Assembly (NCBI GenBank): GCA_020354555.1
Contig: CP070648.1
Span: 2,924,586-2,965,587 of the forward strand
Direction of reading: 5' to 3'
Length of the DNA: 41,002 bases
Source: Armatimonadota bacterium
GTDB lineage: Bacteria > Armatimonadota > Hebobacteria > GCA-020354555 > CP070648
Every line of letters begins with the position of its first letter. Position 1 is the first letter of the stretch. The notes under the pieces were generated by a model. It ran no database searches, had not been told where the DNA came from, and worked only from the letters and a program-made list of their open reading frames with translations. Positions 11,034-37,312 of the stretch are shown one piece after another. The translations under genes and the position numbers were made by a program.

Positions 11034-11204
11034 GACGAAGCCGCTGGCGGTCGTCACTCGCGGCGACGGTCGGCGGCCGGCTCGGGCGCGCCGTCGGCGT
11101 TGCCCGGCGCTGTTGTGCCTCGTGCGCCGGGTCGCCGCGGCACCTCGCCTGGGCCATTGAGCCGAACATCGCCGAATCTTGACTGAGGCAACCGGGAGGA
11201 ACCC

Positions 11205-11852
11205 ATGAATCTCAAGCGCTTGACGCAGATCTGCGATAAGATTCGCAGCGATTTCGATGCCAAGGACGCGGCCCGCGAGAAGGCCCTCGCACTGTCTCGC
11301 GAGGTCATCCGCAACAGCGCCAATGCCATCCGTGGCGTTCACCGCGGCGAACTCGGCGAGGCGCGCAAGCTCATCGCCGCCAGTTCCCGCATGCTGGCTC
11401 AGGTCAACAAGGCGCTCAAGGGCCACCCCGACATCCACTACGCCGGCTTCGCCCAGGACGCCCAGAAAGAACACGCCGAGGCCTGCATCACCCTCGCCCT
11501 CGTGCACCGCGAGCAGATCCCCGACCCCGACGAGTTGAAGGTCGACTACCCCGCTTACCTGCTCGGCCTGTCCGAGGCGGTAGGCGAACTCCGTCGCCAC
11601 GTCCTCGACGAGATGCGCGGCGCCGAGCCGAGTTGGGGCGAGGAATTGCTCACCGCGATGGACGACATCTACTACCTCCTGGTCTCGTTCGACTACCCCA
11701 GCGCCGTTTCCGGCAACCTCAAGCGCGCCACCGATGTCACCCGCTCGATCATCGAAAAGACCAGGGGGGACGTCACCAACGCCCTGCGCCAGGAGCGCCT
11801 CGAACGCGCTATGCGCCGCCTGGAGAAAGACATCGGCGCCGGTGACCAGTGA
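11205..11852 (+). CDS. Translin family protein
   Basis: A 215-residue, strongly helical protein that matches translin along its length. The core contains KGHPDIHYAGF, the acidic pair E89-x-x-E92 in KEHAEA (equivalent to the EYVEA region where TRAX carries catalytic glutamates), YLLGLSEAVGELRRH, MDDIYYLLVSFDYP, and LKRATDVTRSIIEKTRGD. Eukaryotic translin/TRAX form C3PO, an endoribonuclease that clears cleaved passenger strands; archaeal translins alone form nuclease octamers. Here only one paralogue is present, so a homo-oligomer acting on RNA or single-stranded DNA is likely. GGGAGG is six bases before the ATG. No partner gene adjoins it. Confidence 0.85.
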   Translation: MNLKRLTQICDKIRSDFDAKDAAREKALALSREVIRNSANAIRGVHRGELGEARKLIAASSRMLAQVNKALKGHPDIHYAGFAQDAQKEHAEACITLALVHREQIPDPDELKVDYPAYLLGLSEAVGELRRHVLDEMRGAEPSWGEELLTAMDDIYYLLVSFDYPSAVSGNLKRATDVTRSIIEKTRGDVTNALRQERLERAMRRLEKDIGAGDQ

Positions 11853-22951: not shown

Positions 22952-23590
22952 TCACCGGTTCCGCGTCGCAGGGGGCAGCCGCCCTGAGCCTCTTGGCCGA
23001 ACCAGGTTCTGCTCCTTCGCCGGCTCCCTGGGCAGCCAGGGGAACTGAGGACCTTCCCCAGGCTTGAAAGCCATGTCCGGCGGCCGCTGCGGCAGGAACA
23101 GCATCCCGTAGATGGTCTTGTCGAAATCCGGGTTCGGCACGAAGGTCCACGGGCCGGGCGGATACGGCTTAACGTGCCAATACGCGTAGCGCCCTGGGTG
23201 CACGTAGTACGGCGGCGGGAGGATAATCGGCTCCCAATACCTGGCCCCTGTCGCGGGATCCCACACCCACCGGCCCGGACGCTGCGGCTCGATTAGCCGC
23301 GGGGACGTTCGCCGGTAATCGTGACGCAGCGCTGCTCGCTGCGGCACTGCCTGCGGCTGATCGAGCGCAGGTTTCGGCGGCGGTGGAGGTGGCGGCGGAG
23401 GCGGAGGTGGCGGCGGAGGCGGAGGAGGCGGCGGAGGCGGAGGAGGAGGCGATGCCGTTTCCTTTGCCGCGGGCGGCTCGCTCTGCTCATCCGCAGCTCC
23501 GATAGTGGCCTGGGGGCTGCTCGCGCTCATTGTCACGAGAAACACGAGCGCGACCCACGCCCAGACAAGCGGCGCCGCGTGCTGCTTCAT
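22952..23590 (-). CDS. Secreted protein with 25-proline tract
   Basis: A 212-residue exported protein. A signal peptide (LVWAWVALVFLVTMSASS) precedes a short acidic stretch, then 25 consecutive prolines at residues 48-72 (coded at 23375-23449), and a C-terminal domain rich in Pro, Tyr and Trp (RWVWDPATGARYWEPIILPPPYYVHPGR split over two strands). Ribosomes would need elongation factor P to pass the tract. The polyproline helix could span the periplasm or peptidoglycan, as in TonB-like linkers, though no TonB domain is seen. GGAGG is six bases before the ATG, and the gene has its own promoter. Confidence 0.7.
   Translation of the reverse strand: MKQHAAPLVWAWVALVFLVTMSASSPQATIGAADEQSEPPAAKETASPPPPPPPPPPPPPPPPPPPPPPPPPKPALDQPQAVPQRAALRHDYRRTSPRLIEPQRPGRWVWDPATGARYWEPIILPPPYYVHPGRYAYWHVKPYPPGPWTFVPNPDFDKTIYGMLFLPQRPPDMAFKPGEGPQFPWLPREPAKEQNLVRPRGSGRLPPATRNR
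23375..23449. repeat. Low-complexity GGN triplet tract coding for polyproline
   Basis: Twenty-five consecutive CGG/AGG/TGG triplets on the plus strand (CCN on the coding strand) give an almost pure-G/C tract with many GG runs. It is prone to replication slippage and could form G-quadruplexes. The codon order is mixed, so it is not a simple single-triplet expansion. Confidence 0.85.
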
Positions 23591-24321: not shown

Positions 24322-25734
24322 CTAATACAGGAGGTCGTCGAGGCGCGCGCCGACCGTCACGCGGTACAACCGCTCTGCCGTGTCCGCGCTGACGTGCAAA
24401 GGTGGCCTGACCTCCACCGACCTCCAGTAGCATCTCCGCGCGAGGTGGCGCAGACCGGCACGAACGAAGATGTCTCCCCCGATCTTCTGCAGCGCGGGGA
24501 ACCAATGACGTGCGCCGTCGGTGAGGGCCTTGCCAGCGAGGAACAAGGTCTCCCGCGCCGCCCACAGGCTCTCGTTCTTGCGGCCCGACTTGGCGAGAGC
24601 CGTTCCCAGTATCGCGTAGTAGAACGGATTTCCCGACTCGGTCTTCTCAGCCGCGCGCAGATGGTCGAACGCATCTTTCAGCCGCACCCTCCCGAAGGTG
24701 TGAAGGTGCGCCATGTTAATCAGGGCTCCGCCGAATGCCTCGAGTTCCAGGGCGCGCGCGAAGCAAGACTGCGATTCGTCGAACGCCCCGCCGTGGAAGT
24801 AGCGGAAGGCCCCGAGAGCAGTCCACAATCTGGACGATCCCGGCCGGGCCCGGATCGCTCGCCGCAGGGCCTTCTCAGCATGTCGGCACCTGGTCCGGTG
24901 GTAGGGCGTGCCGCTCGAATCCTGAGTGTCGCCCCACATGCGCATGCCGAGACCGTCGTCGAGCACGAAGCTGGCGGCGTACGCTCCCGCGCCTTGCTGC
25001 CAATGCCCCTGCGTCCACAGCAGTTTCCCGAGCTGCCAGTAGCACCGCGCCAGATCCGTCGCCACCGTCGTCGGGAATGGCAGCTTCCCGCGCCGCGTGC
25101 ACTTCCGCATGATCCGCCGCGCCCGGCTCAGGCGCATCTTCACCGCCCCCACCGATAGATCCAGCAGGTACGCTATCTCGCGCAGATCCGTGTCGTGGTA
25201 GAAACGCAGTACCGCCGGTATCGCCAGCTGCGTCGGGAGCGATGCCACCGCCTCGCACAGCCGCGCGGCCGACTCGCGCTCTTCGAGCGCTGCGACGGGA
25301 GTCAGCTCGGTCAGCATGGGCGATGCCCACCGCGACTCGCTGGTCCCCTTCAGCTCCGCCGGCGCGTGACGCCGCGCTCGAAGCAGCTCGTGGGCCACAT
25401 TGCCCGCTATGCCCAGCAGCCACCCGACGAAGCTGCACGATGGCCAGTAGCTGTGAAGCCCTTCGTAGGCGCGCAGGAAGGTCTCCTGCGTCGCGTCGAG
25501 AACGGCATCGGAGCTGTGCAGCCGGCGGGAGAGATACCGCTCCACCTGCGCGCGGTACCGCCGCACCAATTCATCGAAAGCGGGGCCGTGGGAATGGGTC
25601 AGGGTCTCGTGTACGAGGTCGGCGTCGCGCCACGTCGCCAGCGAGCGCGCCCGTCGCTCAACACGGGACGCCGCACCGGACAGGCCGGAGCTTGCGTGAT
25701 CTTCGCTGCGCATCGCGCTCGTATCAGCAGACAT
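24322..25734 (-). CDS. ECF sigma factor fused to a TPR-like C-terminal half
   Basis: A 470-residue protein. Residues about 50-122 are sigma region 2 (FDELVRRYRAQVERYLSRR, ATQETFLRAYEGLHSY, SFVGWLLGIAGNVAHELLR) and about 152-210 are region 4 with its helix-turn-helix (LREIAYLLDLSVGAVKMRLSRARR). This would direct RNA polymerase to specific promoters. Unlike a normal ECF factor of about 180-200 residues, it continues with some 250 residues of helix pairs resembling tetratricopeptide repeats (HAEKALRRAIRARPGSSRLW, ESQSCFARALELEAFGGAL, AFDHLRAAEKTESGNPFYY). No anti-sigma gene adjoins it, so the C-terminal half may do the regulating. ATG 25734 has GAGGAACC just upstream. Confidence 0.88.
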   Translation of the reverse strand: MSADTSAMRSEDHASSGLSGAASRVERRARSLATWRDADLVHETLTHSHGPAFDELVRRYRAQVERYLSRRLHSSDAVLDATQETFLRAYEGLHSYWPSCSFVGWLLGIAGNVAHELLRARRHAPAELKGTSESRWASPMLTELTPVAALEERESAARLCEAVASLPTQLAIPAVLRFYHDTDLREIAYLLDLSVGAVKMRLSRARRIMRKCTRRGKLPFPTTVATDLARCYWQLGKLLWTQGHWQQGAGAYAASFVLDDGLGMRMWGDTQDSSGTPYHRTRCRHAEKALRRAIRARPGSSRLWTALGAFRYFHGGAFDESQSCFARALELEAFGGALINMAHLHTFGRVRLKDAFDHLRAAEKTESGNPFYYAILGTALAKSGRKNESLWAARETLFLAGKALTDGARHWFPALQKIGGDIFVRAGLRHLARRCYWRSVEVRPPLHVSADTAERLYRVTVGARLDDLLY

Positions 25735-25942
25735 GGTTCCTCGGAGAACAGCCGCACACGGTTTCCTCACGGGGTTCTGTGTCGCCCCGCGCCCTCCTCT
25801 ATGGATTGGTTCAGCGCAACCTGCGATTCCGTACGAATCCAGGGCCGGATGACGGAGCGCTCCTCCGTGCTAATCCGACGCTCGCGCGAGGACATGCGCA
25901 GGCGACGCATCCAATGCCCCTCGTCGGCACAGATGCTCCGCC

Positions 25943-25971: not shown

Positions 25972-25989
25972 GGCCCGCGGAGATTGCCA

Positions 25990-27126
25990 GTGATGCACAA
26001 GGCCACCTTGATCTACAGCCCCACCTTCGCCGAGTACAAGCTGAGCGACACCCACCCCCTGCGCCCGGAGCGGCTCACCCTCGCCTTCGAGCTGATGCAG
26101 GCCTACGGCCTGTTCAGCGACTCGGGCGTGAACTCGCAGCAGCCCACCGAGGCCGGCCGAGAGTTCCTGCTCAAGGTGCACGCCGAGGAGTACGTGGATA
26201 TCGTCAAGGCGCTGGGCGAGGGCAGGAGTGTTGATTCGCCCTCGCGCTATGGCCTCGACACCTCCGACAACCCCATCTTCCCCGGCATGTACGAGGCATC
26301 CGCGCTGTGCGTGGGCGGCTCGGTGCTGGCTGCGGACCTCGTTATCAACGGCAAGACCGAGGTCGCCTTCAACATCGGCGGGGGGCTGCATCATGCCCAC
26401 CGTAACCGCGCCGCGGGATTCTGCGTGTTCAACGACCCCGCGATCGCCATCGCGCACATCCTCGAGCGCACCGACGACGACGCCAGAGTCGCCTACATCG
26501 ACATAGACGCCCATCACGGCGACGGCGTCCAGGAGGCGTTCTACGACTCCAACCGCGTGCTCACCATCTCCCTCCACGAGACCGGCCGCTACCTCTTCCC
26601 CGGCACCGGCTTCGTCGAAGAGTCGGGGATCGGGGATGGCGTCGGCTATTCCGTCAACATTCCCCTCGCGCCGTACACCGACGACGAGACCTACCTCTGG
26701 GCATTCCGCGAAGTCGTGCCGCCGTTGATCGAAGCGTTCAGACCGGACTTCATTCTCACTCAACTCGGAGCAGACACCCACTACCGCGATCCGCTGACAC
26801 ACCTGGCGCTGACCACCGCCGGCTATACGGAAGTCCTCAATACCTTCAAGCGCCTGCCGGGCAAGTGGGTCGCCTGCGGCGGCGGGGGGTATGACCTCGA
26901 GGTCGTGCCGCGGGCGTGGACGCTCGCCTTCGCGGTCATGGCCGACCTCGACCTGCCCGACGAGATCCCCGGAGCCGCCGCCCGGCACTACCCCGACACT
27001 TCGGGCCGCTTGCGCGACGCCGAGGCGCCCGAGTCCGGCCCGGAACTGCGCGCCGGAATCAAAGTCATGGCCGAGCGCACGGTGCAGCAGATCAAACGCC
27101 TCATCTTCCCCCGCCACCGGCTGTGA
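25990..27126 (+). CDS. acuC: AcuC-type (class I/II-like) protein deacetylase
   Basis: A 378-residue member of the histone deacetylase family, similar to bacterial AcuC, which removes acetyl groups from acetyl-CoA synthetase and other proteins. Zinc and active-site motifs are present: GGGLHHAHRNRAAGFCVFND, YIDIDAHHGDGVQ, and QLGADTHYRDPL, with GGGGYDLEVVPRAW near the end. I choose GTG 25990, seven bases after GGAG; ATG 25993 is the next codon and is equally possible. It stands alone after its promoter; acuA or acs is not in the window, so the physiological target is inferred only from the family. Confidence 0.9.
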   Translation: MMHKATLIYSPTFAEYKLSDTHPLRPERLTLAFELMQAYGLFSDSGVNSQQPTEAGREFLLKVHAEEYVDIVKALGEGRSVDSPSRYGLDTSDNPIFPGMYEASALCVGGSVLAADLVINGKTEVAFNIGGGLHHAHRNRAAGFCVFNDPAIAIAHILERTDDDARVAYIDIDAHHGDGVQEAFYDSNRVLTISLHETGRYLFPGTGFVEESGIGDGVGYSVNIPLAPYTDDETYLWAFREVVPPLIEAFRPDFILTQLGADTHYRDPLTHLALTTAGYTEVLNTFKRLPGKWVACGGGGYDLEVVPRAWTLAFAVMADLDLPDEIPGAAARHYPDTSGRLRDAEAPESGPELRAGIKVMAERTVQQIKRLIFPRHRL

Positions 27127-30734: not shown

Positions 30735-30995
30735 CTACTTCGGTTCGACCATGAGCCGAATCGCGGTGCGTTCCTGGCCGTCCACGTGAATATCGGCGAA
30801 GGCGGGCCGGCAGATGAGGTCCACTCCCGAGGGCGCCATGAACCCCCGCGCGATTGCCAATGCCTTCACGGCCTGATTCAGCGCGCCCGCGCCGATGGTC
30901 TGCATCTCCGCGCATCCCTTCTCGCGCACCACTCCAGCCAGGGCGCCTGCTACTGCATTCGGGTTCGATTTTGCTGATACTCGAAGGACCTCCAT
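30735..30995 (-). CDS. spoVS: Stage V sporulation protein S
   Basis: An 86-residue protein, the same length as Bacillus subtilis SpoVS and recognisable along its whole length: MEVLRVSAKSNPNAVAGALA, IGAGALNQAVKALAIARGF, and PSGVDLICRPAFADIHVDG. SpoVS is an Alba-like nucleic-acid-binding protein needed for late sporulation and septation control in Bacillus, but it also occurs in non-sporulating lineages such as Thermus, so it does not show that this organism sporulates. AAGGAGG lies seven bases before the ATG. Its position after ymdB and rny is a known conserved order. Confidence 0.97.
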   Translation of the reverse strand: MEVLRVSAKSNPNAVAGALAGVVREKGCAEMQTIGAGALNQAVKALAIARGFMAPSGVDLICRPAFADIHVDGQERTAIRLMVEPK

Positions 30996-31121
30996 CGTGA
31001 GTCCTCCTTGCCGTGTCTTTGTAGATAACGTTGCAGCCGTGACGTCGCCGGCCCGGATCGTTTGCGATGCCTCCACATGCCGAGCACCGCCTGAGGAACG
31101 CACGCGCGCAAGGCTGCCGCG

Positions 31122-31940
31122 CTAGTTCTGCCCCTCAGCGGCCGACTCGACAAGCGGATCGGGCTCGACCTCCTGAAGCGTCTTGATGCTGCGGGCGCGG
31201 CCGGTTTCCTCGTCAATCTCAATCACAGCGGCGCCGATTACGACCGGCCCCCGCGCCAACTCGAATTTCTTCGGCATCTGCCGCGTGAACCGCTCGATCA
31301 CCGTGCTCGGCTCGATCCCAAGCACCGAATCCCGCGGCCCGACCATGCCGACGTCCGTTATATACGCGGTACCCCCCGGCATCACCTGCGCGTCCGCCGT
31401 CTGCACGTGCGTGTGGGTGCCGATCACCGCGCTCACCCGCCCGTCCACCATCCATCCCATCGCCAGCTTCTCGCTGGTCGCCTCGCCGTGCATGTCCACC
31501 ACGATCGCCCGGGCGGCCTCCCCCAACTCGGCGATCTGCCGCTCGACCTCGCGGAACGGGCAGTCAAGACACTCCATGAATACCCGCCCGCATAGGTTGA
31601 TAACCGCCACCGGCACGCCGCTGCGTGACTCGAACACCCCAGCCCCGCGCCCGGGTGCCTCCGGCGGATAGTTGGCCGGGCGCAGCACCCGCGACTCCTG
31701 CGCCAGGAACTGCTCCGCCTCCTTCTTATTCCACACATGGTTTCCGGTCGTAATGACATCCACGCCGGGCGCCAGGATCTCCTCGGCTACGGAGGCGGTG
31801 ATGCCGAACCCGGCCGCCGCGTTCTCGCCGTTGGCGATCACGAAATCCGGCTGCCAGCGTTCGACCAACTCCGGCAGCGCGCGCTGGAGCGCGCGGCGCC
31901 CGGGGCGGCCCACGATGTCCCCGATGAAGAGTATGTTCAT
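31122..31940 (-). CDS. ymdB: YmdB family calcineurin-like phosphodiesterase
   Basis: A 272-residue metallophosphoesterase of the YmdB family. Binuclear metal motifs are clear: ILFIGDIVGRPGRRAL, ANGENAAAGFGI, ITTGNHVWNK, VVDMHGEATSEK and IGTHTHVQTADA. In B. subtilis YmdB hydrolyses 2',3'-cyclic nucleotides and influences biofilm and RNA turnover together with RNase Y. ATG 31940 matches the family N-terminus; the open frame upstream overlaps the rny end and is not coding. The gap to rny is 95 bp. Confidence 0.96.
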   Translation of the reverse strand: MNILFIGDIVGRPGRRALQRALPELVERWQPDFVIANGENAAAGFGITASVAEEILAPGVDVITTGNHVWNKKEAEQFLAQESRVLRPANYPPEAPGRGAGVFESRSGVPVAVINLCGRVFMECLDCPFREVERQIAELGEAARAIVVDMHGEATSEKLAMGWMVDGRVSAVIGTHTHVQTADAQVMPGGTAYITDVGMVGPRDSVLGIEPSTVIERFTRQMPKKFELARGPVVIGAAVIEIDEETGRARSIKTLQEVEPDPLVESAAEGQN

Positions 31941-32035
31941 AGATCGGCGCGCCCTGCGTCCGTTGCCGTATGCCACGCGTCTGTTGTCGCAAACCCTACG
32001 TTCACCGCCGCCCGCGTCCGCCGCGGCGGCGGCTT

Positions 32036-33571
32036 TTACTTCGCATATTCCACGGCGCGGGTCTCCCGGATGACCGTGACCTTGATCTGTCCCGGGTAGT
32101 CCAGCCCTTCCTCGATGTTGTGCACGATCTCCTTCGCCAGCCGCCCCGCGGCGAGGTCGTCCACGTCCTCCGGCTTGACGATGATGCGCACCTCGCGCCC
32201 CGCTTGAATCGCGAAGCACTTGTCCACCCCGGCGCACGACTCCGCTATCTTCTCCAGGTTCTCCAGGCGCTTGATATACGTCTCCAACGTCTCCTTGCGT
32301 GCGCCCGGGCGCGAGGCCGACACCGCGTCCCCGGCCTGCACCAACACCGCCTCGACCGTCCGGAACGGCTCCTCGGCGTGGTGCGCCGAGATCGCGTGGA
32401 TGACCTCGTCGTTCTCCTTGTGATGGCGCGCGAGATCCGCGCCGATGGCCGCGTGGGTGCCTTCGACTTCGAAATCAACCGACTTGCCGATATCGTGCAG
32501 CAGGCCGGCACGCTTCGCGACCGCGACCGACGCGTGCAGCTCTCCTGCCATCACCCCGCATAGGTGGGCGACCTCGATCGAATGATCGAGCACGTTCTGC
32601 CCGTAGCTAGTGCGGAACTTGAGCTTGCCCAGCTGCCGCATCACATCCTTGGGCAAGCCGGTCACGCCGGTCTCGAGCACCGCCTGCTCGGCCGCCTCCT
32701 CGATCTTCTTCTCGACCTCCTTGCGCGCCCGCGCCACCGTCTCCTCGATGCGCCCGGGATGGATCCGCCCGTCGTTGATCAGATACGACAGGGTGGTGCG
32801 GGCGATCTCGCGGCGCACCGGGTCGAACGCCGATAGTACGACCGCCTCCGGCGTGTCGTCAATGATCAGATCCACGCCGGTTTCCGCCTCGAAGGCGCGG
32901 ATGTTGCGCCCCTCGCGCCCGATGATGCGCCCCTTCATCTCGTCGCTCGGAAGGGGCACGACGGACACGGTGGTCTCCGCTGCCTGGTCAACCGCGCAGC
33001 GCTGAATTGCCATCGCCAGGATATCGCGCGCCTTGTTCTCGGCCTCCTCGCGAGCCGCCTCCTCGATCTCCCGTGCGAGTTTGGCGGCCTCGTGGCGAAC
33101 CTCGTTCTCGACCTGCTCGAGCAGCAGTGCCTTCGCCTCTTGCGGCGTGACCCCCGAAATCCGCGCCAGCTCGGCGAGTTCACGCTCTTTGACCTCGACG
33201 ATCTCCTGCCGCATGCGGTCGAGGTCCTTCTCGCGCCCATTGAGGGCGCGTTCGCGCTTCTCGGCACCGTCGAGCTTGCGCTCGAGATTCTCCTCCTTCT
33301 GTGCAATCCGGCGCTCCGCGCGCTGGATTTCGCTCCTGCGCTCCCGGTTCTCCCGGTCTATCTCCGTGCGCAGCCGGTGCGCCTCGTCCTTGGCTTCGAG
33401 CAACGCCTCCTTCTTGAGCCCATCTATCTCCTTCTGGGCATCCTCCAGGATGCGGCTCGCCTCCCTCAGCTTCGCGCCCGCTCGCTGCGATTGCTTGCTC
33501 CCGATCAGCCATGCGAGCGCGAGCACCACGATCCAACCGACTACCGATAGAACGATATACTGCGTTTCCAT
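32036..33571 (-). CDS. rny: Ribonuclease Y
   Basis: A 511-residue membrane-anchored endoribonuclease that initiates mRNA decay. Residues about 6-23 form the N-terminal membrane helix (IVLSVVGWIVVLALAWLI). Residues about 30-190 are a long coiled coil. A KH domain has GRIIGREGRNIRAFE, and the HD nuclease domain has LLHDIGKSVDFE and AISAHHAEEPF. The C-terminal RNase Y domain ends REVRIIVKPEDVDD through VIRETRAVEYAK. GGGAG lies about eight bases upstream of the ATG. It is transcribed with recX and recA upstream and ymdB and spoVS downstream. Confidence 0.98.
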   Translation of the reverse strand: METQYIVLSVVGWIVVLALAWLIGSKQSQRAGAKLREASRILEDAQKEIDGLKKEALLEAKDEAHRLRTEIDRENRERRSEIQRAERRIAQKEENLERKLDGAEKRERALNGREKDLDRMRQEIVEVKERELAELARISGVTPQEAKALLLEQVENEVRHEAAKLAREIEEAAREEAENKARDILAMAIQRCAVDQAAETTVSVVPLPSDEMKGRIIGREGRNIRAFEAETGVDLIIDDTPEAVVLSAFDPVRREIARTTLSYLINDGRIHPGRIEETVARARKEVEKKIEEAAEQAVLETGVTGLPKDVMRQLGKLKFRTSYGQNVLDHSIEVAHLCGVMAGELHASVAVAKRAGLLHDIGKSVDFEVEGTHAAIGADLARHHKENDEVIHAISAHHAEEPFRTVEAVLVQAGDAVSASRPGARKETLETYIKRLENLEKIAESCAGVDKCFAIQAGREVRIIVKPEDVDDLAAGRLAKEIVHNIEEGLDYPGQIKVTVIRETRAVEYAK

Positions 33572-33686
33572 CTATGCAACTCCCTTCTTCGAGAGGCCGA
33601 AGGGCGGGAGAGTCATCCCATCGGCCTCAACCATGTTGCGCCCGGCGCCGCTGATCCCGACGCCGGCGGCGGCGGCCCGCCATACT

Positions 33687-34178
33687 CTACGAAGCGCTCC
33701 GCTCCCGGCGCGCCCGTGCGAGCGCCGCATCTATCACCTCAAACGTAAACCCTCGCCGCCGCAGCGCTGCGGCCAGGCGCCTCAGGCTTCCTGCTTCATC
33801 CTCGCCCGGCCGCGCCGCGTACCTGGCGGCCACTCTCAGTGCGGCATCCAGTTCCCGCTCCACGCCCATTTCTTCCTCGATCGCTCGCTGGATGATCTCT
33901 TCATCTACCCCCTTGCGGCGCAGCTCCCAGCGCACCACCAACGAGCCCCGAGGGTTGTTCGCCAGGCGCTCCCGCATCCACGCGCGGGCGAACGCCTCAT
34001 CATCTACCAGCCCCGCCATTTCCAGCGCATCCACCGCCGCGCGAATCACCGGCTCCGCGAACCCCTTGCGCGCTAGCCGCTCGGCCAGCTCCCACCGGCT
34101 CCGCGCGCGGTACCCCAACAGCCGCAGACACGCCTCGCGTGCCCGCTCGACCTCTCGCCGCGAGCAATCGCTGCTCAG
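33687..34178 (-). CDS. recX: Regulatory protein RecX
   Basis: RecX binds RecA filaments and modulates recombinase activity. The conserved part includes ACLRLLGYRARSRWELAERL, VDALEMAGLVDDEAFARAWM, RGSLVVRWELRRKGV, and a final RRGFTFEVIDAALAR helix set typical of three-helix RecX repeats. The nearest standard start is TTG 34118, but homologous sequence extends upstream (EVERAREACLRLL). No ATG, GTG or TTG is in frame between there and a stop inside recA. GGGAGG at 34189-34184 lies five bases before CTG 34178, so I place the start there, giving 163 residues. It follows recA by 62 bp. Confidence 0.88.
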   Translation of the reverse strand: MSSDCSRREVERAREACLRLLGYRARSRWELAERLARKGFAEPVIRAAVDALEMAGLVDDEAFARAWMRERLANNPRGSLVVRWELRRKGVDEEIIQRAIEEEMGVERELDAALRVAARYAARPGEDEAGSLRRLAAALRRRGFTFEVIDAALARARRERSAS

Positions 34179-34240
34179 GCTATCCTCCCTCAGGCCTAAG
34201 AGTCGCGCGGCGACGGGCCTCGCGGTCTTGTTGACCGCCG

Positions 34241-35275
34241 CTATTCCTCGGCCGCCGCGTCATCTTCATCCGCCGCACTGGCCCCGTCGGCGCCGACCTG
34301 CTGGCGGATGCGATCCTCGATCTCCTGGGCCAGCTCCGCGTTGCTCTCCAATGTCTCTCGTGCGTTCTCGCGCCCCTGCCCGAGGCGGGTATCGCCGTAG
34401 CTGAGAAACGCCCCCGACTTGGTGATCAGCCCGAGCCCCAGGCCGACGTCGAGAATGCAACCGCCGTGGGATATCCCCTTGCCGTAGATCATGTCGAACT
34501 CGGCCTGCCGGAACGGCGGCGCGACCTTGTTCTTGACTACCCGCGCGCGGCTGCGCGCGCCGATGACCTGCGTCCCGGACTTGAGGTTCTCCACCCGCCG
34601 CAGCTCGATGCGCACCGACGACCAGAACTTGAGCGCGCGGCCGCCGGGCGTGACTTCCGGATTGCCGAACATGATGCCGATCTTCTCGCGGAGCTGGTTC
34701 AGGAAGACCCCAACCGTGCGCGTCGTCGCCAGCGATCCCGAGAGCTTGCGCATCGCCTTGCTCATCAGCCGCGCTTGGAGCCCGACGTGCGAATCGCCCA
34801 TTTCCCCTTCCAGCTCCGTCTGGGGAACCAGCGCGGCGACCGAGTCCACCACGAAAATGTCAATCGCGCCGCTGCGCACCAGCATGTCGGCGATATCCAG
34901 CGCCTGCTCCCCGGTGTCGGGCTGTGACAGCAGAAGCTCGTCAACGTTGACCCCGACCGCCTTGGCGTACGCGGGATCGAGCGCGTGTTCCGCGTCGATG
35001 AACGCGGCGGTTCCCCCGCGCTTCTGCGCTTCGGCGACGATGTGATATGCAAGCGTGGTCTTCCCCGAGGCCTCGTTCCCGAAAATCTCGATAATCCTCC
35101 CGCGCGGCACGCCCCCGACACCCAGCGCGAGGTCGAGCGTCAGCGCACCCGTCGGAATCGCATCCACCGACAGCCGCGACGACGCCTCGCCGAGGCGCAT
35201 GACTGAACCCTTGCCGAATTGCTTCTCGATCTGGCCGATGGCCAGCTCCAACGCCTTCGCTTTGTCCGACATCAT
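34241..35275 (-). CDS. recA: Recombinase RecA
   Basis: A 344-residue RecA. The N-terminal polymerisation helix ([23 protein letters not shown]), ATPase core and acidic C-terminal tail (DEDDAAAEE) are all present. Walker A reads GNEASGKTT (66-74) instead of the usual GPESSGKTT, so a proline and a serine are replaced while the invariant G, K and T remain. Walker B-type [11 protein letters not shown], loop L1 [17 protein letters not shown] and L2 [24 protein letters not shown] are normal. ATG 35275 overlaps the thpR stop as ATGA; a second ATG follows immediately. It probably belongs to the long cinA-to-spoVS transcript. Confidence 0.98.
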
Positions 35276-35856
35276 CCCTCTCCCTGCTCCGTCGGCGCTC
35301 CCGCGAGATCAAACGCATGCTGACTCGTATAGATGGGTCCCGTCGGGCGCAGGTCGCTGCGCATCAGCTCGACGCGCCTGACCTCCATCTCACCAAACGG
35401 CCGCTCGCGCATCGCCCGTATCTCGGCGGCGAGCCCGTCACGCCCGCCCGCGCTGCGGCACCGGCCCACTGTGACATGCGGGCTGAACCCCCGCGCTTCC
35501 CTGTCAAATCCCAATGGCTCCAGCGCCGCCTCTACCCGCTCCGCCAGCCGCGCAAGCTCCTCCGCGCCCTCTTTGACTCCCACCCAGATCACCCGCGGCG
35601 CTGTTGCCGACGGGAACCCGCCCGTGCCCTCGATCCGCAGGCGGAACGGCGCCTCCGCTTCCACGGCCGGCCTCACCGCCTCGACGATCGGCGCCAGCCG
35701 CGCGTCATCCACCCACCCCAGGAACTTGAGCGTCAGGTGCATGTTGTCCGGGCGCACCCACTTGACGTCGCCGCCCGTGCGTCGCAGCGAACCCTGCGCC
35801 TCACCGATGGCCTGGCGTAGGTTCCCGTCCAGGTTGACGGCCACGAAAGCCCGCAT
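35272..35856 (-). CDS. thpR: RNA 2',3'-cyclic phosphodiesterase
   Basis: A 194-residue member of the 2H phosphoesterase superfamily, also called 2'-5' RNA ligase or LigT-like. The two catalytic HxT motifs are H40-L-T42 (MHLTLKFLG) and H127-V-T129 (SPHVTVGR). It opens 2',3'-cyclic phosphate ends of RNA to 2'-phosphates. It begins [14 protein letters not shown], the usual start. Its location between cinA and recA is a recurring arrangement in several phyla, and it overlaps recA by four bases. Confidence 0.95.
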
Positions 35857-35913
35857 CGTCTCGATCCAGCGCCTCGCCGCACGGCAGCAACGCAGCGCCT
35901 TTTCCCCTACGTC

Positions 35914-37173
35914 CTAGTCTTCTGCGCGCGCCCGTGCTAGCCTCTCGGCCTCGCTCAGCACCAACGCCAACGCCGCGTTCGCCGCTCGCGACTTGATCAT
36001 GTCACGCGCGCCGCCAAAACGGTGTTCCTCGCACTTCTCCCCGTCCGGGCCGCAGAAGCCAATGTACGTCAGGCCGACCGGCTTCCGCGCCGTGCCGCCC
36101 GAAGGGCCGGCAATCCCCGTTACCGAAACCGCGACATCCGACCCAAGCACCCGGCGCGCTCCCGCAGCCATCGCGAGGGCGGTCGGCTCGCTCACCGCTC
36201 CGTGTTCCTCCAGCACCGTCTCCGCAACGCCGAGCAACTCCACCTTCGCGCGATTGCCGTACGTTACAAGCGAACCGAGAAAGTAGTCCGAGCTGCCCGG
36301 AACTTGCGTTATCCGGTGGCCGATCAGGCCCCCGGTGCACGATTCAGCGGCCCCGAGGGTCAGCCCGGCCACCCGCAGGCGCTCGCCGACAGCCGCCTCC
36401 AACGACTCCTCGTCGCGGCCGTACATGAATCCCCCGGCGCGCTCCCGCACCGCCGCTTCGAGGGGATCGAGCATCGCCTCCGCCGCGTCCGCGTCCGCCG
36501 CCTTCGCGGTCAGGCGCACGTGCACCTCGCCGGTACACGCGAGGAGCGCAATGGTGGGATTGCTCTGCGCCGCAACCAGATCCCCGATTAGATTCTCCAG
36601 CGTGGATTCGCCGATACCGACGAACCTGAGCACCCGCGATCGGATGACGCTGTCCGGCGACAGGCGGCGCAGCTCCGGCAGTAGGCTCTCCTCGGCCATC
36701 GCCTCCATTTCTCTGGGCACGCCGGGCAGGGCGCACACGACATGGCCATCCTCTTCGACCATGAAGCCCGGAGCGCTGCCGACGGGGTTGGGCATGATGC
36801 GTGATCCCGCGGGCACGCGCGCCTGCTTCATGTGGCTGTCGAGGACGGGGATGCCGCGGGTCTCGAGGAGCGACCGAATACGTCTCGCGCAGGATTCGTC
36901 GAAGATGAGTTCGCGGTTGAGGGCGAGCGCGATCGCCTCCGACGTGACATCATCGGCCGTCGGGCCGAGGCCGCCGGTTACGATCACGGCGTCGGCGTGG
37001 TTCAGCCCGTCACGCACCGCCGCGCGGATGCGCTCAACGTTGTCACCGACCGTGACGTGCCGATAGACGTCTATGCCGACGTCCGGCAGTCTGCGCGACA
37101 GGTAGGCGGCGTTGGTGTTGACGATCTGACCAAGGAGAAGCTCGGTTCCTACCGAGAGGATTTCCGCTCGCAT
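35914..37173 (-). CDS. cinA: CinA family protein (competence/damage-inducible; NMN deamidase-related)
   Basis: A 419-residue two-domain CinA. The N-terminal MoCF-like pyrophosphatase domain has AEILSVGTELLLGQIVNTN, VIVTGGLGPTADD and PNPVGSAPGF. The C-terminal amidohydrolase domain has LTLGAAESCTGGLIGHRIT, GSLVTYGNRAKVELLGV and VTGIAGPSGGTARKPVG. In characterised cases the domains act as ADP-ribose pyrophosphatase and NMN deamidase in pyridine nucleotide recycling. ATG 37173 has AGGGGA five bases upstream. A strong promoter lies about 240 nt upstream, leaving a long structured leader. Confidence 0.96.
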   Translation of the reverse strand: MRAEILSVGTELLLGQIVNTNAAYLSRRLPDVGIDVYRHVTVGDNVERIRAAVRDGLNHADAVIVTGGLGPTADDVTSEAIALALNRELIFDESCARRIRSLLETRGIPVLDSHMKQARVPAGSRIMPNPVGSAPGFMVEEDGHVVCALPGVPREMEAMAEESLLPELRRLSPDSVIRSRVLRFVGIGESTLENLIGDLVAAQSNPTIALLACTGEVHVRLTAKAADADAAEAMLDPLEAAVRERAGGFMYGRDEESLEAAVGERLRVAGLTLGAAESCTGGLIGHRITQVPGSSDYFLGSLVTYGNRAKVELLGVAETVLEEHGAVSEPTALAMAAGARRVLGSDVAVSVTGIAGPSGGTARKPVGLTYIGFCGPDGEKCEEHRFGGARDMIKSRAANAALALVLSEAERLARARAED

Positions 37174-37312
37174 GCGGTCCCCTGGAGCGCGCCGACCGTC
37201 GCGGGCCTGCGGCGCGCTCGTTCCGCGGGCTCGCCCGCTGTGACACCGCACAGTCGGCCTGTGCCCGCATTCTAACCCGGATTACCCATGACCGACCTCG
37301 CGCCCTGCGCGC

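Follow-up and report, generated by a model that had tools for sequence, protein, structure and literature searches.

The locus studied here raises the question of what a protein of the translin superfamily is doing in a bacterium: whether it is a translin, as an earlier note on this DNA had proposed, whether it came from archaea, and whether it is likely to cut RNA. We addressed these questions in a stretch of 41,002 nucleotides from the genome of an Armatimonadota bacterium (contig CP070648.1), hereafter the window.

A Trax-like gene in Armatimonadota

The open reading frame at 11205-11852 on the plus strand, which runs from ATG to TGA and encodes 215 amino acids, is a genuine gene, preceded by a Shine-Dalgarno-like GGAGGA that was read by eye at 11194-11199 on the same strand (approximate to 2 bases); no promoter- or terminator-like site was found around it. 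We classify its product as a Trax-like member of the translin superfamily, of the PRK14562/COG2178 type, from the reading frame, the sequence matches and the predicted fold. In a phmmer search against the PDB, the window protein matches AfTrax of Archaeoglobus fulgidus (3zc1) with an E of 4.9e-18 over residues 12-193, in line with the full-length copy described by the earlier note, and NEQ131 of Nanoarchaeum equitans with an E of 2.6e-05. When a profile of 34 bacterial homologues was compared with the same database, it found AfTrax (3.2e-42), NEQ131 (1.2e-17), human TRAX (6.8e-07) and Drosophila Trax (2.5e-05). At E up to 1 no chain of mammalian translin was recovered; two chains labelled GM27569p, from a Drosophila clone, came up at E 0.6-0.7. 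The nearest relative encodes a homologue of the window protein with 79% identity.

With Pfam at its default threshold the window protein has no match, and a search of the window's genome with PF01997 (Translin) found nothing. At a relaxed E this model gives the protein 18.9 bits, below its gathering score of 25.9, which is a detection threshold and not a biological feature, and it matches 30 of the 34 homologues at E up to 10. The best NCBIfam model of the PRK14562 set, NF011160, scores 262.5 bits (E 2.3e-78) against a cut-off of 291, a value that not one of the 198 genomes sampled from the phylum of an Actinomycetota MAG (G062) attains either. Since the Pfam Translin score lies below its cut-off, the family assignment rests on other evidence, namely the PDB sequence search, the profile and the fold.

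The AlphaFold monomer model is all-helical, with a mean pLDDT of 94.8, and Foldseek ranks its matches in the order AfC3PO, NeC3PO, animal Trax and translin, with an E of 3.5e-08 and a TM to target of 0.85 against 3zc1. The protein also carries a quartet of acidic residues that is a signature of Trax. Because of this quartet, and by the ranking of profile and fold matches, the window protein is, as judged from sequence and model, Trax-like and of the catalytic type, not translin; the earlier note, which had announced a translin in a bacterium, was right about the superfamily and mistaken about the member.

A predicted self-assembling endoribonuclease

The best explanation of these features is that the gene encodes a Trax-type, metal-dependent, self-assembling endoribonuclease, an activity that we predict from sequence and model with a probability of roughly 70%. 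According to this proposal, one type of subunit would fold as an all-helical translin-superfamily protein, and identical subunits would form a closed oligomer, which by analogy with archaeal C3PO is probably an octamer. Self-assembly into a homo-oligomer is proposed because the window's genome yielded a single superfamily gene and no separate translin gene that could provide a partner. A divalent metal would be bound by E89, E92, E124 and E128, acids contributed by two adjacent helices, and short single-stranded or nicked duplex RNA would be cut inside the shell, the likeliest cellular role being the turnover of small RNA pieces. The catalytic sites of C3PO reside in TRAX (PMC3834833), and NEQ131, which is Trax alone, degrades RNA through oligomerization (PMC9051087); a bacterial Trax without a partner would therefore be workable. 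Weighing against an endoribonuclease are the third acid, which is Glu and not the Asp inactivated in AfTrax, and the Pfam Translin and NF011160 scores, both of which fall below their curated cut-offs.

The known systems differ in how closely they resemble the window protein. The C3PO of A. fulgidus (AfTrax, 3zc0/3zc1) has in common with it a full-length alignment, the best Foldseek match, the acidic quartet and the use of one gene type, but the two proteins are about 31% identical, the window protein has E124 in place of the archaeal Asp, its host is bacterial, and it is known from sequence and a model. The C3PO of N. equitans (NEQ131; 5jr9, 5jrc and 5jre) is alike in fold and acidic quartet, whereas identity is about 21% and the third position is Asp. 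Eukaryotic TRAX (3pja, 3axj and 3riu), the catalytic subunit of C3PO, resembles the bacterial proteins in fold and through the human and Drosophila profile matches, but forms a hetero-octamer with translin; the separate translin and TRAX genes that characterize eukaryote-type C3PO were not found in the window's genome. Eukaryotic translin (1j1j and 4wyv) has the same overall fold, with a TM of about 0.7-0.76, yet gives a weaker fold match and no clear profile match, and it is non-catalytic.

Gene neighbourhoods and a possible link to tRNA

If the protein is an endoribonuclease, its favoured substrate might be tRNA or pre-tRNA fragments, a tentative suggestion drawn from the genes beside it. 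In the window, a DUF6807 gene lies upstream of the Trax-like gene at a gap of about 195 bp, and a convergent KefB/KefC-type antiporter gene faces it; no tRNA-related gene stands beside the Trax-like gene in this genome. In the closest relative, a long ORF occupies the corresponding upstream position and follows a homologue of the window's sugar-isomerase-like TIM-barrel gene; apart from this, there is little conservation of gene neighbourhoods. Both this poor conservation and the lack of an adjacent tRNA gene in the window's genome count against the endoribonuclease explanation.

Elsewhere the surroundings are more suggestive. Genome coordinates and domains show a gene of the CCA-adding/poly(A)-polymerase type directly 3' of the Trax-like gene, on the same strand and at a gap of about 20-150 bp, in 14 genomes from four families of Armatimonadota: f20 (G032, G045, G639, G640, G641, G643, G647 and G648), f36 (G630 and G631), f37 (G635 and G636) and f38 (G637 and G638). 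The loci with this CCA-type neighbour are L036 (3998-5359, minus strand), L151-L154, L156, L157 and L161-L163. An rpoN-like gene after the CCA-type gene is common to seven f20 loci only, and the Trax/CCA-type pair is therefore held more widely than its surroundings. In four Chloroflexota that belong to a single clade (L095, L096, L098 and L099), the Trax-like gene comes immediately after an AlaX-type alanyl-tRNA editing gene, and in other Armatimonadota a gene for a D-aminoacyl-tRNA deacylase or for a class I W/Y tRNA synthetase is found downstream. The neighbour clusters used were on the same strand and confirmed by Pfam or genome coordinates, with clusters that were opposite-strand shadows of stop-to-stop ORFs left out. 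As a separate observation, a RadC-type gene lies directly upstream of the Trax-like gene at five Armatimonadota loci of f15 and f26 (L026, L033, L034, L166 and L170).

Taken from sequence and noticed post hoc, these associations point tentatively to tRNA metabolism. In Neurospora, C3PO-type complexes appear to remove 5' fragments of pre-tRNA (PMC3834833), and in archaea TRAX is found in an operon with SepRS (PMC5424206, PMC8762117). As a narrower version of the Trax-type endoribonuclease explanation, the bacterial protein could be a dedicated tRNA or pre-tRNA enzyme that disposes of 5' leaders and 3' trailers once these have been cut off, or of defective tRNAs, and works together with the CCA-adding enzyme and with tRNA deacylases. 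The CCA-type gene in 14 genomes, the AlaX, deacylase and synthetase neighbours and the archaeal operon all argue for this specialization, while each adjacency may stem from one ancestral event, the association was a post hoc observation, and it is absent at most loci, the window included. We hold the dedicated tRNA enzyme to be possible, on the doubtful side.

The earlier note had also set the gene beside those for RNase Y, ThpR and YmdB as a sign of RNA processing. These genes are present in the window, but they lie 20-25 kb away and show no sign of a link to the Trax-like gene. The segment that holds them (30735-37251, minus strand) appears, by translation, to encode SpoVS, TIGR00282 (YmdB-type), RNase Y, RecX, RecA, ThpR and CinA, of which NCBIfam models confirm TIGR00282, RNase Y and ThpR. 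It is likely the cluster commonly seen in bacteria, and its distance from the Trax-like gene is about 20 kb or more. Other genes of the window include one for a sigma-70-family (ECF-like) factor whose C terminus is extended by about 260 amino acids that have no Pfam match (24322-25770, minus strand), an ORF whose product has more than 20 consecutive prolines behind a signal-like N terminus (22952-23590, minus strand) and a histone-deacetylase-domain protein (PF00850, 2.3e-89; 25984-27126, plus strand).

Conservation of the active-site acids

E89 and E92 lie where the earlier note had placed them, within KEHAEA (K88-A93; codons 11466-11483, plus strand), as does KTRGD (residues 185-189; codons 11757-11771, plus strand). 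To the first two acids our analysis adds E124 (codon 11574-11576, plus strand) and E128 (codon 11586-11588, plus strand) as conserved active-site acids, which together make up the quartet E-x-x-E plus (D/E)-x-x-x-E and would serve as metal ligands 1 to 4. E89, E92 and E128 do not vary in any of the 110 distinct bacterial homologues or in either archaeal sequence, which bears out the claim that the E-x-x-E pair is preserved. The KTRGD segment, which reads E-[RK]-T-R-G-D in most homologues, falls within the long C-terminal helix of the AlphaFold model, and we know of no evidence that places it in the active site.

The putative third ligand, supported by alignment with AfTrax and NEQ131, by homologue counts and by the tree, is acidic throughout: 104 of the 110 bacterial homologues have E at position 124, and the other 6 have D, as do AfTrax and NEQ131. 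In the alignments, the AfTrax of the RNA complex (3zc0) differs from the apo form (3zc1) by a D to A change within GFADAVGELRR, and in the corresponding GLSEAVGELRR of the window protein E124 replaces this Asp, with E128 as the next Glu. Glu in place of the Asp inactivated in AfTrax could weaken or abolish catalysis. Within the bacterial tree, D at position 124 arises four separate times, which argues that the acid is kept rather than the exact side chain, and these sequences are most simply explained by a metal site that accepts either D or E.

Translin binds nucleic acid without cleaving it and is the non-catalytic subunit of the complex, and the bacterial Trax-like protein might likewise be a non-catalytic binder of RNA or single-stranded DNA whose acids have been retained for its folding or for a binding function that involves no cutting. 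This alternative draws on that known family biology and on the change of the third catalytic Asp to Glu in most bacterial homologues, but it sits poorly with the fact that all four positions are acidic in 110 of 110 sequences while overall identity drops below 40%, and with the repeated E to D changes at position 124, which are expected of a metal ligand and not of a dead site; we regard it as unlikely. The active nuclease that the earlier note had suggested is plausible from the sequence of the window protein.

Distribution and descent

Far from being unusual in bacteria, as had been supposed, the gene is carried by 190 of 205 Armatimonadota genomes of at least 90% completeness (about 93%), by 181 of the 194 in this sample with at most 5% contamination, and by 52 of 61 genomes in a smaller sample of relatives; in the Armatimonadota sample, the families without it are f8 (0/3) and f24 (0/5). 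It is also present in 139 of 251 genomes of Chloroflexota, the phylum of Ktedonobacter, and in 84 of 198 genomes of the phylum of the Actinomycetota MAG. The window's genome has a single match, and nearly all relatives have one per genome.

In a maximum-likelihood tree of 110 bacterial homologues and two archaeal sequences (AfTrax and NEQ131), the window protein groups stepwise with relatives from its family and class (support 100/95, 100/86 and 100/88), and it belongs to a group of ten sequences that all come from Armatimonadota (98/69). Elsewhere in the tree the phyla intermingle in part, some groups being mixed, and at some points this probably reflects either transfer between bacterial phyla or a lack of resolution. 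A recent lateral transfer from an archaeon into the lineage of the window, for which the earlier note had proposed a phylogeny, could be invoked because the closest solved relatives are archaeal. It is nevertheless very unlikely, given the high-support nesting of the window protein among its class relatives and the presence of the gene in 190 of 205 genomes of the phylum, the widespread vertical presence that the earlier note, coupling it with a lack of nuclease activity, had itself named as telling against its view. The two archaeal sequences, which have long branches, are placed outside all 110 bacterial ones with weak support (92/64), and on a sample of two a very old exchange between the domains may still have taken place. 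A search of genome contigs with the window protein returned bacterial matches only. No relatives were found in plasmid records, phage records or viral contigs, and an origin from a mobile element is therefore without support. Judged from sequence, the gene is an ordinary single-copy gene of the phylum and not a recent archaeal loan.

A misleading family name

The NCBIfam models NF011156-NF011161 (PRK14562) match bacterial and archaeal Trax and yet are named "haloacid dehalogenase superfamily protein". That the window protein should be such an enzyme, as these match names would have it, has next to no chance of being correct, since its modelled fold is all-helical where haloacid dehalogenases are Rossmann-like, the DxDx[TV] motif and any haloacid dehalogenase Pfam match are absent, and its Foldseek matches in the PDB are C3PO, Trax and translin. 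Because of the modelled helical fold and the missing motif, we consider the PRK14562 name wrong, and it likely conceals the family from those who search for bacterial C3PO.

Implications for the origin of C3PO

A 2012 study by Gupta, Kale and Kumar names eubacteria in its title, and its abstract reportedly describes a single Trax-like protein in Chloroflexi. The study (J Mol Evol 75:155) is cited for translin-superfamily proteins in eubacteria in PMC3834833, PMC5424206 and PMC8762117. Compared with the proteins of that study, the distribution described here extends to the phylum of the Actinomycetota MAG and to Armatimonadota, where the gene is nearly universal. In the literature that we looked at, we did not find this near-universality, the systematic Glu at the third position or the linkage to cca stated.

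It is tempting to combine these features and to view bacterial Trax as a stand-alone, homo-oligomeric C3PO with a Glu-for-Asp site that would clear pre-tRNA leaders, trailers and faulty tRNAs together with CCA-adding and aminoacyl-tRNA proofreading enzymes, although in this complete form the proposal is rather improbable. Were it true, the clearance of tRNA fragments would be the ancestral job of C3PO, and its part in RNA interference would have come later. The complex is known from that pathway, which to our knowledge is absent in bacteria, and a conserved single-copy bacterial Trax can inform the original role of the enzyme. Since the gene is nearly universal in Armatimonadota, a phylum with cultured members, the question of that original role is experimentally accessible.
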